Origin: Lysobacter arenosi
Lineage (GTDB): Bacteria > Pseudomonadota > Gammaproteobacteria > Xanthomonadales > Xanthomonadaceae
Assembly: GCF_016613475.2 (NCBI RefSeq)
Contig: NZ_CP071517.1
Coordinates: 2,976,001 to 3,040,000, forward strand
Direction: 5' to 3'
Length of the DNA stretch: 64,000 bases
This document shows positions 1,886 to 62,090 of this stretch, one piece after another (position 1 is the stretch's first letter; each line of letters begins with the position of its first letter). A program made the position numbers and the translations under genes. The notes below the pieces were generated by a model, which saw only the letters and a list, made by a program, of their open reading frames with translations, made no database searches and was not told the origin of the DNA.

Positions 1886-4800
1886 GCGCCCGCCTCCGGC
1901 GCCGGCGCGCGCTCATATGCCGTGACCGCATCGAACACCCGCTCGGTGGTCGCTGCAAAGGCTTCGCGCAGCACATCCTCGGCCAGCAGGTCACGGCCGC
2001 GTAGTGTCAGCTTGATCGCATCGCCCGCGCCTTCGGCCCAGTTTCGTCCGCTGTCGCCGGTCCAGCGTTCGCGCATCTTCTGCCACGCCTTCTCGTCGCT
2101 CATGCCGTCGCGCAGCGCGCTGTATAGCGCCCAGCCGCTGTAGGGTGCGAACGCGAGTGCTTCGCGCATTCCCTGCTCGCGCAGCTGCAACAACTGGCGC
2201 AGCGCTTCGCGCGCCTGCTCGGCGTTCAGCGCCGGACGCTCAAACCGCTGCGCGCCATCGCCGTCGTCGTGAAACTGCACCAGTGGCCTGCCCTGCTCCG
2301 CCGCGCACAGCAGCAGCCAGTCCAGGCCGGCGCGGATCGTCGACAAGCCGTTGGGCTCACCGATTCGGACACGTGCGAGACCATGCTCGTAGACATTGTC
2401 GATGCGGCCGCGCAGGACTGTGCCGTCGATTTGTGTCTCCACCGTCATCGCCAGCGGTCGCCGGTTGCCGCGCCATTCCGAATACAGGCGTGCATACGGC
2501 CTCTCCTGCCCGACCAGTGCTTCGAACTCACGCCGGCCCAACGGACCCGACGGCAGCAGCGCACGCGCCAGCAGCCGTTCGTACAGGCCCTCGGTCTGCT
2601 GTTCAAGCAGCGCATCGAGCACCGCCCGCTGCAGCAGCGATCGCGACCAGCCACCGCCGGGCATCAGCAACGGCTCGGTGTCGTCGGCGGCCTCCACTTC
2701 AGCAGGAAGGCGCATGCCCATGCGCTCGCGCAGGAACTGCCCGGCCGGGTCGCACAGGAAACGCCGCAGGCTGTCGAGCATGGTGACCTGGGGACCACCG
2801 GCGCTCGCGGCCAGCGGGCCGGCGAGCCAGGGCATCAGCGCATGGCGCTCCCCGCCGCGCAGGTTGGCCGCCGGGTGCCATTCGTCGCGGTAGCTGAAAC
2901 GACGGGTTTCGCCGGCATCGCCGAACGCCGCCGGAGCGAATGGCTGCAATGGATGGCGCACGACCAGCGCCTGCTTCGCGTCGGCATCCGGCGAGTGGTA
3001 GTCGGCGATGACATTGAGCAGCTCCGACACCAGCACCGATGGCTCGCGTGGACTGCCGTCGCGCGGGTCGGCGCCCTGGTAACTCAGGTACAGCACGTCG
3101 CCGGCCGACGCCAGCAGTTGCAGGAACAGGAAGCGATCGTCCTCGCGCAGCGAGCGGTCGCCATGGCGGCGATGGGCGGTGCCGAGCTCGGCGCTCAGGC
3201 GGTTCAGGCCCGCCGCAGGATCGCGTCGCGGGTAGTCGCCATCGTTGAGGCCGAGCACGCAGATCGCGCGGAACGGCAGCAGCCGCATCGGCACCATGCG
3301 GCCAAAGCTCACACCGCCGGTGAGCAGCGGCGCGCGCGTATCGGCTTCGGACAGCCGCGCGGCGAAATGCGCGCGCACGACTTCGGCCGGCACCGGCGCA
3401 TCGAAGCCGGCGCGTTGCGCGGACTGGGCGAAGTCGCCGATCAGCAGGCGCAGCCGCTCCAATGCACGTTGGCCGGCGACGGCCGCGGGCGGCCGCAGGA
3501 ACAAGGCATCCAGCAGACCCAGCAGGCGTTCGCGCCATTGCGACGGCGGCATCGACTCGGCCAGCGTGCGCTGGTGTCGGGCCAGCACGCGCATCAGGCG
3601 CAGCAGCGTGTCGAGTGCATCGACCGCGCCACCTTCCAGTTCCGGCCACGGCGCGATGCCGGCAATGTCCTCGTCGCTGCCGCTGGCATAACCGAGCAGC
3701 AGGCGGTCGAGGGCGAAGGCCCAGGTGTAGGCATCATCGCGCGGTGCGTCGTGCAGCGCGCGGTGGCCCGCGTCCAGGCCCCAGCGCACGCCCGCTTCCT
3801 CCAGCCAGCCGTGCAGGCGCTCGAGCGCGGGCGCATCCAGGCCGGCGGCACTGGCCAACGGCGGACTGGCGAGCAGGTCGAGGATTTCGTTGAGGCCGAA
3901 ACGCGACACCGGCAAGGCCAGCAGGCGCAGGAACAGTTCGGCCAGCGGTTCGCCGGCGAGCGGGCTGGCATCGGCCAGCGCGAACGGGATGAAGTCCTCG
4001 CGCCCTGCCCGCCCACCGAAGACCGCGTCGATGCACGGAATGTACGGGTCGATATCGGGCGCGAGCACCGCGATGTCGCGCGGCTGCAAGGGCGGATCGA
4101 AGCGCGGGTCGTCGAGCAGGCCACGCAGCTGGTCGTGCAGCACCTGCACTTCGCGCAGGCGGGTGTGGCAGGCATGCAGCTGCACGCTCGGGTCGTTGCG
4201 ATCCACCTGCGCACGCCACGGTGCCGGCGCACGCCGGTGCAGCAGGTCGCGCTGGAGGTGGCCGAGCAGCGAGTCGTTCTCGGGCCGGTCGCCTTCGGCC
4301 GCTTCCGGATCGACGTAGTGGGCGTGCTCGTGGGAGGGATGCACCACCTCGTAGCTGCCCAGCACGGCGATGAAGTCGCGCCCGGCCGCGCCCCAGGCCT
4401 GCAACAACGGGTTCTCCTCCGCCGGCGTGCCGAACATGCTGTCCAAAGGCGCATCGTCGGCGCCGCCGCGCAACTGCTCGGCGAGCGTCTGCAGGTCGCC
4501 CCAGTAGCTGCGCGTCGGGCTGGGCATATAGAAATGCAGCGTGCCGACCCGGGCCTGCGTGGCGATCACGCGCAGCACGTCGGGTGACATGTTCAACGTG
4601 GCAAAGGCGAACAAACGCGATGGCAAACCCTGCGGCAACGGCCCCGACGGGTCGCCGAACCGCTGCAGGTACTCGCCTATCCGCTGCGCGCGATGGCCGC
4701 CGCCGGCCGCCACGCGACGCCAGAGTGCCGCCTGCGGGTCACCGGGTTCGTGCCCTGCCTCCCACGCCAGCAGCCAGTCGCGGCGCCAGGCCTGGTACTT

Positions 4801-54865: not shown

Positions 54866-57632
<2,767 letters not shown>

Positions 57633-58748
57633 TCAACCGCTGATCACCCCATGTTCCACGTGGAACCGTCGAAGCTGGGTGGTGGGGTCCAACCCATTGG
57701 GCGCTTCGGTCCCCGTAATGAAAACCTGCGCTCCGCTGGACTGAAGCCGCGCCAGCACCCGCCCCTGATGCTGCCGGTCCAGCTCGGAGGCGAGATCATC
57801 CAGCGCCACCACGGGCCAATCCCCGCGCGCCGCGGCGTGGTGCTCCGCCTGCGCCAGCAGGGTCGACAGCGCGGTCAGCTTGGCTTGGCCACGCGAGAGC
57901 GCTTCGCGGCCGGGAATCGCGCCGAAGACGATCCGCCAGTCAGCCCGATGGGGTCCGACAGAGCTGTATCCGGCAACAAGATCGCGCTCCCGGGCCAGAA
58001 GCAGGGCGTCCGCCAGCGGCAGTTCGTCCCGACGCCACCCTGGGACATAGTCCAGGCGGCTGGGGCCGAGGGCAGGGGCCAGTTCTGACAGCAGGGCGGC
58101 AAATCTGGGCTGGAGTTGCTCGAGATACTGCTCCCGGCGTCGGCTGAGCGGTTCTCCGGCCTCGGCGAGCTCGTGATCCCAGGCGTCCAGCTGGCCATCG
58201 CGTGCGCGGGCCTTGAGCAGGGCGTTTCTTTGCTTCAGCGCCCGCGCGTAGCGGCGCCAGAGCGGAAGGAAATCTTGTTCCACGTGGAACAAGCCCCAAT
58301 CGAGGTAGCGTCGACGGGATTCGCCGCCGCCGGTGATCAGGGCATGGCTGCCGGGTTCGAAACTGACGACAGCCAGAGCGGCACACAGGTCACCCAGCTG
58401 GGCGACGTTGCTGCCGTCCAGGCGCCCGGTCCAGTCCTCGCCGCTGTGCCTCATGCCGGCCTTACGCGTGCGCTCCGGGGCTGTGGCGGCCGTCTGGGCG
58501 TCAGCACCGGCTGCCAGGCGCTCCTGCCACTCGACGAAGACCTCCAGGGCTTGGTCTCCGTCCCGGATAAGCCCGTCGCGCACCCGCCCGCGGAAGCTGC
58601 GGCCGTAGGCCATCAGGTGCAGGGCTTCGAGCACGCTGGTCTTGCCCGCGCCGTTGTCGCCGGTGATCAGGTTGAGGCCTGGGGATGGATCGAGGCGGAG
58701 CTCGACGAACCGGCGCAGGTTGCGCAGTTCAAGGCGGGTGACGTGCAT
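57633..58748 (-). CDS. recF: DNA replication and repair protein RecF
   Basis: RecF loads RecA at single-strand gaps with RecO and RecR. The 371-residue SMC-like ATPase has Walker A GDNGAGKTS (30-38), a signature region with LSRGQAKLTALSTLLAQ, and Walker B VVALDDLASELD. Two parS-type palindromes lie inside its coding sequence, each read as Phe-His-Val-Glu: one in LFHVEQD, one at the C terminus in RFHVEHG. It has its own space behind the dnaN terminator rather than overlapping dnaN. Confidence 0.95.
   Translation of the reverse strand: MHVTRLELRNLRRFVELRLDPSPGLNLITGDNGAGKTSVLEALHLMAYGRSFRGRVRDGLIRDGDQALEVFVEWQERLAAGADAQTAATAPERTRKAGMRHSGEDWTGRLDGSNVAQLGDLCAALAVVSFEPGSHALITGGGESRRRYLDWGLFHVEQDFLPLWRRYARALKQRNALLKARARDGQLDAWDHELAEAGEPLSRRREQYLEQLQPRFAALLSELAPALGPSRLDYVPGWRRDELPLADALLLARERDLVAGYSSVGPHRADWRIVFGAIPGREALSRGQAKLTALSTLLAQAEHHAAARGDWPVVALDDLASELDRQHQGRVLARLQSSGAQVFITGTEAPNGLDPTTQLRRFHVEHGVISG
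57652..57667. promoter_or_regulatory. parS-type ParB binding site 1 (15 of 16 match)
   Basis: TGTTCCACGTGGAACC matches the palindromic ParB site TGTTCCACGTGGAACA at 15 of 16 bases. It is inside the last codons of recF. ParB-parS complexes condense and segregate the origin region; parA and parB themselves are not in this window but usually lie close to the origin. Confidence 0.75.
58276..58291. promoter_or_regulatory. parS-type ParB binding site 2 (perfect)
   Basis: TGTTCCACGTGGAACA is a perfect 16-bp parS, extended to a 20-bp palindrome CTTGTTCCACGTGGAACAAG (58274-58293). It lies in the middle of recF, so the DNA palindrome and the encoded Leu-Phe-His-Val-Glu-Gln are both constrained. Confidence 0.88.
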
Positions 58749-58823
58749 TGGGGTCAGTTTACCGGTCCGCCTTGGCTGGGGGTAAGGACGGCGGCGTCAG
58801 AGCCTGAGAACGGTCGATGGACG

Positions 58824-58839
58824 TGTTCCACGTGGAACA
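58824..58839. promoter_or_regulatory. parS-type ParB binding site 3 (perfect)
   Basis: TGTTCCACGTGGAACA, extended to an 18-bp palindrome (58823-58840), lies in the gap between recF and dnaN. With the two sites in recF it makes three parS copies in 1.2 kb, about 1.4-2.6 kb from the putative origin. Confidence 0.9.
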
Positions 58840-58898
58840 CGGCTATTCAGGGCGTTGCGAGCCGCTCTTTGGCAGATCCAACTGACCAACCGGGCAGC

Positions 58899-58929: not shown

Positions 58930-58948
58930 GGGCCAAACAACCGGCAAC

Positions 58949-58975
58949 AAAAAAGCCCGGCACTTGGCCGGGCTT
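58949..58975 (-). terminator. Rho-independent terminator of dnaN
   Basis: Read on the minus strand, GCCCGGC-CAAGT-GCCGGGC is followed by six Ts. It is 25 bases past the dnaN stop and separates dnaN from recF transcriptionally. Confidence 0.9.
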
Positions 58976-58998
58976 CCTGGTGTTGCGGGCTGGGCCAA

Positions 58999-60099
58999 TC
59001 AGAGGCGCAGCGGCATCACGACGTGGCGGCAGCGATCGTTTGCGGCTTCGCGGACCAGTGCGGACGAGTTGGCGTCGCGCAGCGCGATGACCACATGCTC
59101 GTCCTTCAGCGCGGTCAGTGCGTCGAGCAGGTAGTTGACGTTGAAGCCCACGGCCAGGTCGTCGACCTTGGTGTCGGCTTCGACTTCTTCCTGTGCTTCT
59201 TCCTGCTCCGGGTTGTGCGCGCTGATCTTCAGCTGGCCCGGGGAAACTTCCAGGCGCACGCCGCGGTACTTCTCGTTCGACAGGATTGCCGCACGCTGCA
59301 GCGAAGCCCGCAGCACTTCACGGTCGATGCGGACTTCGCGGTCGGCGCCGATCGGAATCACTGCCTCGTAATCCGGGAAGCGGCCGTCGATCAGCTTGCT
59401 GGTAAAGGTCACGTCGTCGCGCTTCACGCGCAGGTGGCCGCGACCCATCTCCAGTTCGAGTTCGCGATCGCCGCCTTCAAGCAGGCGCTGCAGTTCCTGC
59501 ACGCCCTTGCGCGGCACGATGATCTGGCGCTTGGTCTGGGCTCCGTTCTCGAGCGGCGATTCGCATAGTGCCAGGCGGTGACCGTCGGTGGCCACGCAAC
59601 GCAGGCTGGATTCGCGCAGGTCGAACAACAGGCCGTTGAGGTAGTAGCGAACGTCCTGCTGCGCCATCGCGAACGCCGTGCGTTCGATCAGTTCCTTCAG
59701 CGCTGCTTCCGGCACGCGTACGCGCTCGGTGGCTTCGACTTCGTCGATCGACGGGAAGTCGTTCGCCGGCAGGCTCGCCAGGGTGAAGCGGGAACGGCCG
59801 GCTTGCACCGTGATCTTTTCCGCCGACTGCGAAATGGTGACCTTGCTGCCGTCGGGCAGGGCGCGAACGATCTCGAACAGCTTTCGCGCCGGGATCGTGG
59901 TTTCACCGTCCTGGGCGTCATCGACCAGGACACGCGACACCATCTCCACTTCCAGGTCGGTACCGGTCAGCGACAGCTGTCCGTCCTTGACCTGGACCAG
60001 GAGGTTGGCCAGAACCGGAAGGGTCTGGCGGCGCTCGACAACGTTGACGACCTGAGCGAGCGGCTTGAGAAAGACTTCGCGTTGAAGGCTGAAACGCAT
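58999..60099 (-). CDS. dnaN: DNA polymerase III beta sliding clamp
   Basis: DnaN is the ring-shaped processivity clamp. The 366-residue protein has three repeated clamp domains (1-120, 125-245, 250-366) and opens MRFSLQREVFLKPLAQVVN. The C terminus ends VVMPLRL, the usual clamp ending. It lies downstream of dnaA with the putative origin in the 301-bp gap. It is followed by a strong terminator. Confidence 0.97.
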   Translation of the reverse strand: MRFSLQREVFLKPLAQVVNVVERRQTLPVLANLLVQVKDGQLSLTGTDLEVEMVSRVLVDDAQDGETTIPARKLFEIVRALPDGSKVTISQSAEKITVQAGRSRFTLASLPANDFPSIDEVEATERVRVPEAALKELIERTAFAMAQQDVRYYLNGLLFDLRESSLRCVATDGHRLALCESPLENGAQTKRQIIVPRKGVQELQRLLEGGDRELELEMGRGHLRVKRDDVTFTSKLIDGRFPDYEAVIPIGADREVRIDREVLRASLQRAAILSNEKYRGVRLEVSPGQLKISAHNPEQEEAQEEVEADTKVDDLAVGFNVNYLLDALTALKDEHVVIALRDANSSALVREAANDRCRHVVMPLRL

Positions 60100-60400
60100 G
60101 CGGACCCCGTCCCCGTGCCATTACTAAAGATGTGGAATAAATCAAAAGCATGGTGGTGGTGGAGTCGCCGAAAATCCGGTAAAACTGCACCAAGCATTTG
60201 ATTTACAAGGAATTTATTGCCTTCGAAACTTCGGTAGAACCAACCCTGTAAGTCCCGGACAAACTGTGGACAACTCTAACGCACCGGTGATGGGTGTGAA
60301 TTGTCCACAACTTGTGCCCGCAACATACACGGCTTACCCGCAGGCATTGAGGATAAGTATGTCTCGCCCGGCGCAGCTTTGCGCTGTCGCCCTGGCCGAC
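60100..60400. other. oriC: Putative replication origin (oriC) between dnaA and dnaN
   Basis: 301 bp without a gene, noticeably AT-rich for this genome at 60117-60240. DnaA-box-type nonamers are at 60265-60273 (TTGTCCACA on the minus strand) and 60301-60309 (TTGTCCACA on the plus strand), in opposite orientation. TTATCCTCA on the minus strand at 60348-60356 matches the box at 8 of 9 positions. In relatives the origin maps to the dnaA-dnaN region, so this is the best candidate. Confidence 0.7.
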
Positions 60401-61726
60401 TCACTCACTGAGCTTGCGGATCAGCTTGTCCCAGTCTTCCTGCAGCTTGCCGTCGGTTTCCTTCAGCGTGCGGATCTGCCGGCAGGCATGCAGCACGGTG
60501 GTGTGGTCGCGACCGGCAAAGGCATCGCCGATCTCCGGCAGGCTGTGCTCGGTCAGTTCCTTGGCCAGGGCCATCGCCATCTGCCGCGGACGCGCCAGCG
60601 AGCGCGTACGGCGCTTGGACAGCAGGTCCTTCATCTGCAGGCCGTAGTAATCGGCAACGGTCTTCTGGATGTTGGGAATGCCGATCGCCTGCTGCTGCGC
60701 GCGCAGCAGGTCGCGCAGGGTTTCCTGGGCGAACTCGACGGTGATCGCGCGGCCGGTGAAGTTGGCGCGTGCGGTCAGGGTGTTGAGGGCGCCCTCGAGG
60801 TCGCGCACGTTGCTGCGCATCTTCTTGGCGAGCAGGAAGGCGACTTCCTCGGGAATGTTGGCGCCGCGCTCGCGCGCCTTCGACAGCACGATCTGCGCGC
60901 GCGTCTCGAAGTCCGGCGGCTCGATCGCCACGCTCAGGCCCCAGGCCAGGCGCGACTTCAGGCGCGGCTCCAGGCCTTCGACTTCGCGCGGGTAGCGGTC
61001 GCAGGTCAGGATGATCTGCTGCTTGCCGTCGAAGAGCTGGTTGAAGGTGTGGAAGAACTCTTCCTGGGTGCGGTCCTTGCCGGCGAAGAACTGGATGTCA
61101 TCGATCAGCAGCGCGTCGACCTGCTGGAACTGGCGCTTGAACGCATCCATGGTCTTGTCCTGCAGCGACTTCATCATCGCGCTGAAGAACTGTTCGCTGC
61201 GCAGGTACAGCACGCGCATGTTCGGGTTGGCGCTGCGCATGGCGTTGCCGGCGGCGAACATCAGGTGGGTCTTGCCCAGGCCGGTGCCGCCGTACAGCAG
61301 CAGCGGGTTGTGGGCACGGTCGCCGGGCTTGAGCGACGCCTGCCAGGCGGCAGCGCGACCAAGCTGGTTGCTGCGGCCTTCGACGAAATTATCGAAGGTG
61401 TAGTGATTGTCGAGGTGGCCGTTGAACGGTTCCGACGGCACGGCGCGCGCCACCGGCACTGGTTCGTTCTGGGGCACGTACGGTGCCGCGCGCGGCAACG
61501 AGCCGATTTCCAGGCTCACCTCGCCACTGCCGACGAAGTAGGTCAACAGCTCGCGAATGCGGGACAGGTAGCGCTCGCGGACGTGTTCGACCACGAACGC
61601 ATTGGGCGCGTACAGCACGGTGACATCGTCGCGCTGGGCAGCCTGCAACGGCTTGAGCCAGGTGTGGACATCTTCGGCCGGCAGTTCGGCTTCAAGGCGT
61701 TCGAGGCAGCGGGGCCAGGCTTCCAT
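60401..61726 (-). CDS. dnaA: Chromosomal replication initiator protein DnaA
   Basis: DnaA binds DnaA boxes and opens the origin. The 441-residue protein has domain I ([19 protein letters not shown], opening), a short linker (95-120), an AAA+ domain with Walker [10 protein letters not shown] near 146-154 and Walker [10 protein letters not shown], and the domain IV DNA-binding signature [14 protein letters not shown] near 400. The ATG at 61726 matches the family start; the frame is open further up, past DnaA boxes, which cannot be coding. Confidence 0.96.
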
Positions 61727-61868
61727 CAGGTCGGGCGTCTTCTTCTGTTGCGGTCTGCGGGCCTGTGGCCACGGACGAAAAGCGGCCCGCCGCGCGATGA
61801 GCGCATCGCGGCGAACGGGGCGGGGGGTGGAGTCCAGCCTATCACCGGGAATGGGCGCGGAACAGGAC

Positions 61869-61900
61869 TTGTCCACAGGCAAATTAACAGGTAGTCCACA
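61869..61900. promoter_or_regulatory. DnaA boxes upstream of dnaA
   Basis: TTGTCCACA (61869-61877) and TAGTCCACA (61892-61900) lie in the same orientation, starting 23 bp apart, about 145-175 bp before the dnaA ATG. They could autoregulate dnaA or form part of a second origin element. Confidence 0.65.
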
Positions 61901-62018
61901 GGGCATGGTCGGCTCCGCCGGCCATGCCCCCAAAGTTTGCAGGGCAAACTTTGGGTCCCGCTGCATGTCTCCACACCCCATTCGCGCTGCGCGCGAATCG
62001 CCCCCTGACTCAGGGGGC
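61901..62018. repeat. Array of four tandem perfect or near-perfect hairpins with three-base loops
   Basis: (1) GGGCATGGTCGGC-TCC-GCCGGCCATGCCC region at 61901-61929: a 13-bp stem with one G:T pair. (2) 61929-61955: a 12-bp perfect stem beginning CCCAAAGTTTGC with AGG loop. (3) 61980-61998: ATTCGCGC-TGC-GCGCGAAT. (4) 62000-62018: GCCCCCTG-ACT-CAGGGGGC. The arms of different hairpins are unrelated in sequence; only the architecture repeats. Confidence 0.8.
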
Positions 62019-62090
62019 TGGTACCGTGCTCCGGGGCCTCGTTGCCGCTGTCGAAGGCGAGCTCGTGCCAACAGGCGGTGGTTTGGCGGG

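Follow-up and report, generated by a model that had tools for sequence, protein, structure and literature searches.

Can the reading frame of a conserved repair gene double as the centromere of a bacterial chromosome, and does such a use fix what the gene encodes? This question is raised by three 16-mers resembling parS, the binding site of ParB, that are located in and beside recF in a stretch of 64,000 nucleotides of the Lysobacter arenosi chromosome (referred to below as the window). The presence of parS within recF is already known from Pseudomonas aeruginosa, in which parS1 and parS2 lie inside that gene (PMC5521831, PMC3909081). According to the available parts of these reports, any one of the oriC-proximal sites parS1-4 suffices for segregation in P. 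aeruginosa, the sites bind ParB in vitro, and the core CACGTG matters for binding (PMC4368675). The L. arenosi cluster therefore adds to a known phenomenon. In the accessible parts of the open literature, the survey by Livny et al. (2007) excepted, there is no statement that the recF sites are class-wide, that recF holds all sites in some families or that the sites dictate residues of RecF.

A preliminary description of this DNA had named three parS-type sites in or beside recF, two of them read in the gene as Phe-His-Val-Glu (FHVE), and a 20-bp palindrome at 58276. All three 16-mers are present as described, and the two coding sites correspond to RecF residues 154-157 and 362-365 (Table 1). 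Site A is a perfect palindrome over 20 bp (58274-58293); the same holds for site C (58822-58841), which had escaped the preliminary description, and site B has one mismatched pair in 16 bp. Site C lies 75 bp before the recF start. All three sites fit TGTTYCACGTGRAACA, the degenerate 16-bp palindrome used as the parS motif for comparative counts. A fourth match to TGTTCCACGTGGAACA in the window, at 4590-4605, has 3 mismatches. None of 100 shuffled windows contained 4 matches at up to 3 mismatches (mean 0.12). When the codons of the window's recF alone were shuffled synonymously, 38% of 20,000 draws still contained one or more sites with no more than 1 mismatch, so that the single gene by itself proves little; the case for parS in recF is carried by the comparative tests and not by the shuffling of one gene.

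Table 1. Features of the recF region in the window
Feature	Position	Strand	Description
gyrB, downstream neighbour	54866..57331	-	ORF; name presumed from gene order
recF, host of sites A and B	57633..58748	-	ORF; NCBIfam TIGR00611 recf, 315.9 bits (cut-off 172)
parS site B	57652..57667	+	TGTTCCACGTGGAACC on the + strand, 1 mismatch; recF codons 362-365 (FHVE)
parS site A	58276..58291	+	Exact match to TGTTCCACGTGGAACA; within recF codons 154-157 (FHVE)
parS site C	58824..58839	+	Exact match; dnaN-recF gap
dnaN, upstream neighbour	58999..60099	-	ORF; NCBIfam TIGR00663
dnaA, marks the origin region	60401..61726	-	NCBIfam TIGR00362 on 60404-61726; longer ORF 60401-62071

The remaining genome (one contig of 3,947,892 bases in total) was searched for additional copies, as had been proposed in the preliminary description. 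Apart from sites A, B and C, no match with 2 mismatches or fewer was found, and the reversed control pattern occurs once at this limit. Raising the limit to 3 mismatches adds 12 matches scattered over the genome, compared with 19 at up to 3 mismatches for the reversed control, and hence no match outside the cluster exceeds noise. Equal density of the motif across the chromosome had been put forward as an argument against a centromere; instead, the motif is confined to a cluster that adjoins the origin region, within about 2.5 kb of the dnaA-dnaN gap. The distances to this gap (60100-60400), approximately 1.3-2.4 kb, are close to the 1.4-2.6 kb estimated earlier. GC skew gave no sharp position for oriC, and a DnaA-box search for oriC yielded 5 near-matches against 2.7 expected, a number that 12 of 100 shuffles reached as well.

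Shortly after dnaN, a strong hairpin followed by a T run is present on the minus strand at 58938-58985 (-23.5 kcal/mol, z -3.2), which was missed by the pattern scan for terminators. This element suggests that recF may be transcribed apart from dnaN. Site C falls between this element and the start of recF, a placement from which ParB could influence expression of the gene. On the minus strand, in the recF message, the 20-bp palindrome of site A is likewise scored as a terminator-like hairpin. An alternative is that the palindromes are kept for another role in DNA or RNA, as the site of a regulator or as an mRNA hairpin acting on recF-gyrB expression. The hairpin at site A is compatible with it, although terminator-like matches in the region show no excess (4 versus 4.4 in shuffles), and in the available text on P. 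aeruginosa an excess of ParB is described to lower the expression of genes around its sites. Nevertheless, the P. aeruginosa sites serve segregation in addition to binding ParB (PMC4368675, available parts), the sites in the dnaN-recF gap share the sequence of the coding ones yet drift in place, and the conservation of site B follows ParB, as detailed below. We consider this alternative very improbable.

A single ParB_N protein was found genome-wide, at G000:C1:2825159-2826061 (L097:9160-10062). It matches the ParB domain TIGR00180 with 204.7 bits (cut-off 58.45) and is encoded in a parA-parB operon about 208 kb from the sites and dnaA. Directly before parB lies an ORF for a ParA-type ATPase with the Walker-type motif KGGVGKT, whose matches to the NCBIfam ParA superfamily models are below their cut-offs. 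A presumably rsmG-like frame and the ATPase precede parB. Residues R163, N168, G191 and R194 of the L. arenosi ParB align with R173, N178, G201 and R204 of Caulobacter ParB. R173 and G201 are absolutely conserved in ParB orthologues and changed in Noc, as stated in the accessible part of PMC7383237. Because R163 and G191 match these two residues, a ParB able to read the motif is present. The preliminary description had counted the absence of a matching ParB among the possible objections; the protein found here has the arginine and the glycine that are invariant in parS-binding ParBs. Identity as Noc, acting in nucleoid occlusion through NBS sites, was considered and rejected: Q173, K179, K184 and R201 of Noc are R, M, E and G in this protein (PMC7383237, available part), and its score with TIGR04285 nucleoid_noc is 226.7 at a cut-off of 315.

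The codons at the sites were analysed in 80 loci named as Xanthomonadaceae or Lysobacteraceae (a few titled otherwise), chosen as best matches to the L. arenosi RecF. Part of them were found by means of the peptide DWGLFHVE, a choice that biases the set towards the residues FHVE without biasing it towards particular codons for them. In all 80 loci, recF holds exactly two parS-like 16-mers at the same places (up to 2 mismatches to TGTTYCACGTGRAACA), and in 79 of them at least one site was found within 1.5 kb upstream of recF, at -61 to -1159. Hence, the coding sites are fixed and the upstream site drifts. In the 81 recF rows obtained by adding the gene of the window, the codons CAC for His, GTG for Val and GAA for Glu show no variation at either site, and Phe is TTC in 79 and 77 rows, respectively. 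Invariant codons thus make up 6 of the 8 FHVE columns versus none of 159 other conserved degenerate columns, with a mean entropy of 0.056 bits versus 1.276. The two FHVE stretches are the least variable windows of four codons in the family's recF. None of 100,000 random draws of eight columns was as low in entropy, a comparison that is descriptive and not a probability, as the family rows are related. The alignment of recF across the family, proposed in the preliminary description, hence presents FHVE codons that stay unchanged while other conserved codons vary; synonymous variation in the palindromes, there regarded as speaking against the sites, is absent from the six His, Val and Glu columns in 81 of 81 genes.

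These data bear on the possibility that FHVE is kept for the function of RecF itself, be it for the fold or for contact with a partner, and that the likeness to parS comes from codon bias. The result that 38% of the single-gene shuffles leave a site agrees with that. However, it is the codons, not just the residues, that are invariant in the family, while other conserved His, Val and Glu columns of the same gene do vary.

All 16 Xanthomonas-named loci (L041, L051, L062, L065, L066, L067, L074, L075, L077, L080, L081, L087, L091-L094) possess three sites with no more than 1 mismatch each, and recF contains two of the three. In Xanthomonas citri, a member of the same family, at least one parS was reported at the 3′ end of dnaN (PMC3937727, available part); like site C, it is the counterpart of the sites found upstream of recF. 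For X. campestris, a review lists only one parS site (PMC7333895, as far as available). Judged from the sequences of the 16 other Xanthomonas-named loci, this looks like an undercount, suggesting that parS counts in Xanthomonas are too low. A further record, L035, on a contig titled Bacillus subtilis SK7B5, has a recF region 68% identical in protein to that of the window and appears among Lysobacter-like matches; it is probably contaminated or mislabelled.

At the level of the order, TGTTYCACGTGRAACA was counted at up to 1 mismatch in 20 genomes, consisting of the L. arenosi genome, 11 congeners and 8 genomes of other families. The reversed control was absent from 19 of these and occurred once in the remaining one. 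All 12 members of the genus contain exactly three sites in one cluster. The eight other families have one to three sites, with pairs spaced by 606-627 bp and always by a multiple of three. In seven of the eight, every site counted at this threshold lies within recF; in the eighth (G619) the third site begins just after the recF match.

For the class, an even draw provided 167 genomes with a recF match, of which 145 recF loci were compared, weak or unlisted matches being left out. Site A is kept in 126 and site B in 119 of the 145 (up to 2 mismatches to TGTTYCACGTGRAACA); the same codons carry both sites in 109 loci and at least one in 136, and where both are kept they are separated by 200-223 codons (median 207). 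Among the 239 FHVE or FHVK sites, 234 use CAC for His, 235 use GTG for Val and all use GAA or AAA for residue 4, whereas the other codons of the same genes would predict 99, 82.5 and 130. Loci that have lost a site show diverse residues in its place (FYQF, FHAE, FYRE, WKIE and others). Besides the short length of the motif, nothing speaks for chance palindromes near the origin; given the 0 of 100 shuffles, the lack of any other site in the genome and the homologous codons in 136 of 145 loci, this idea is already refuted and its probability is negligible.

Neither site was detected by alignment in nine of the 145 loci. Eight of these nine come from genomes with a ParB match, two of them weak (~1e-26), which is a point against ParB as the cause of the conservation; the ninth, L239, does contain a parS-like 16-mer within the recF ORF, but read in a different frame. 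Eight genomes of the class draw have no ParB match, and only three of those have a recF match (L220, L119 and L239). In the ParB-less G155 (L220), sites A and B deviate by 3 and 2 mismatches, respectively, compared with 1 and 0 in G025 (L140) of the same genus. In G114 (L119) site B is kept though no ParB was found in this 95% complete genome, which likewise counts against a dependence on ParB; a gap in the assembly could account for the lack of ParB in G114 and in G113 (L239, 90% complete). A compensation between Glu or Lys at residue 4 and TTC or TTT for Phe, by which the palindrome would be preserved, was also considered. The association is strong across genomes (Fisher 1.4e-8) but finds no support within genomes whose two sites differ (6 versus 2, p 0.29); compensation is not claimed, because base composition can explain it.

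Outside the class, 20 loci were hand-picked from other classes of the phylum, one per family, and the recF stretch retrieved for each of them contains no site, even with 2 mismatches allowed. Twelve of the 20 read F-x-V where site B would be, twice as FHV, without forming parS. This points to Phe and Val there being partly a RecF trait on which parS could settle, and favours a function of FHVE in RecF itself.

The E. coli order allowed the comparison of recF with and without ParB. Of 90 genomes, 86 yielded recF and 73 a ParB relative. The comparison used 71 recF loci, 70 of the 86 plus that of MG1655, which belongs to a family described as having no par genes (PMC3909081, PMC4368675, available parts). 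ParB-bearing genomes contributed 53 rows. The other 18 comprise 13 without a match, 4 with a weak match only (E 1.1e-6 to 8.7e-20) and MG1655. Site B is kept in 51 of the 53 rows with ParB versus 2 of the 18 without, both of which read FRVE through CAC -> CGC and differ from an intact site by a single base. At site B, the core CACGTG is found in 42 of 53 versus 0 of 18 rows, and the residues FHVE or FHVK in 52 of 53 versus 1 of 18. Site A is kept in 21 of the 53 versus 0 of the 18; the low number among ParB-bearing loci is another observation that fits ParB binding less well. The ParB-less rows form one clade (support 99/99), in which RecF stays full length and site B reads FTVE, FRVE, FSVD, FNIK, FQMH and others, with FHVK once; the RecF of MG1655 has FHNE and FTVE at the two places. 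In the ParB-bearing family beside this clade all 5 rows keep site B, with the core CATGTG.

Changes were counted by parsimony on a tree of the E. coli order, in the building of which the site columns were included. Where ParB is present (tree length 26.9), the His of site B changed once; where ParB is absent (tree length 6.9), it changed no fewer than 10 times. None of 47 comparison columns with at most 1 change in the presence of ParB reaches 10 changes in its absence (40 have none, the highest value is 6). The Val of site B has 0 changes with ParB and 4 without, a behaviour seen in 0 of 33 comparable columns. Since the loss of ParB in this set is one event, these repeated changes all follow one loss. 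The Phe of site B (1 change with ParB, 0 without) and residue 4 (5 changes on either side) do not relax without ParB, which weighs against the dependence on ParB. At site A, Val is missing from all 18 ParB-less rows but remains in only 24 of the 53 with ParB, and His is retained throughout the 18 ParB-less rows and shows 4 changes with ParB. The latter residue looks like a RecF trait, because it is unrelaxed without ParB yet changes in its presence, and thus accords with conservation for RecF function. Weighing against such conservation, the site B residues diverge in the ParB-less clade though RecF remains full length, and its His and Val change far more without ParB than equally conserved columns do. 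We regard RecF function, with codon bias as the source of the parS likeness, as improbable.

The uniqueness of the sites in the genome, together with a parA-parB operon encoding the parS-specifying ParB residues, makes it very likely that the cluster is a chromosomal ParABS centromere. Both coding sites sit at codons that carry parS in most of the Gammaproteobacteria sampled, which argues that selection for ParB binding fixes the codons of recF and, at site B, also the His and Val of RecF. To this explanation as a whole we assign a probability of approximately 0.92. The earlier proposal that recF is under a double constraint, as protein and as centromere, is supported by the invariant codons and the decay of site B in the ParB-less clade. 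By analogy with established work, chiefly in P. aeruginosa, ParB made from the gene 208 kb away would load on the three parS sites beside the origin and spread over the dnaN-recF-gyrB region, and ParA would move the ParB-bound region, with SMC loading and origin segregation as the expected outcome. Lying in frame within a conserved gene next to dnaA, the sites are probably protected in number and place.

In comparison with P. aeruginosa, both species have two oriC-proximal parS in recF (PMC4368675, PMC5521831, PMC3909081), and the reported sequences TGTTCCACGTGGAACC and TGTTCCACGTGGAACA are the forms found here at sites A and B. By our own reading of the table in PMC4368675, the mutant parS1, described as leaving the protein unchanged, is synonymous only in the F-H-V-E frame. 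P. aeruginosa differs in that ten sites are listed, of which the four near oriC matter, whereas L. arenosi has a total of three, with site C in the dnaN-recF gap; moreover, parAB is about 7 kb from oriC in P. aeruginosa but about 208 kb from the sites in L. arenosi. All these statements on P. aeruginosa refer to the available portions of the sources. In L. arenosi the sites stay with recF and not with the parAB operon. The 16-bp palindrome and the ParB recognition residues equivalent to R173 and G201 are shared with the ParB-parS system of Caulobacter (PMC7383237, available part); the absence of a recF site from the 20 loci sampled in other classes of the phylum may set the two systems apart.

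It thus appears that, throughout a class, a DNA function at the level of the chromosome determines codons, and certain amino acids as well, in a repair protein that is conserved and unrelated to it, and the loss of ParB constitutes a natural experiment on that constraint. In this class, the conserved RecF residues near 362-365 and the codon use at 154-157 would not reflect RecF function alone. We consider it likely that recF is the ancestral centromere-bearing gene of the Gammaproteobacteria, that its two sites, with their spacing of about 207 codons, became established in the reading frame close to the root of the class and have dictated codons and some residues since, and that they constitute the entire centromere of some lineages at least. 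In the same scenario, FHNE and FTVE of the E. coli RecF would be the decaying relic of a centromere given up with ParB, and the centromere role may partly explain why recF stays beside dnaA-dnaN, a possible reason for the stable dnaA-dnaN-recF gene order.

Additional parS-like sequences were observed in some recF genes of the class. In nine loci (L105, L119, L141, L152, L184, L193, L202, L219 and L225) an extra 16-mer is situated 31-60 bp past site B, close to where the recF ORF terminates. Two of the nine, L202 and L225, have lost site B, which looks like a replacement nearby. Two loci have parS in frame within the recF ORF but off the two aligned places, as EYVFHVEHF in L324 and AEVFHVKHG in L242, the latter of which could also be a misaligned site B. 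Such instances suggest that new in-gene sites may arise.
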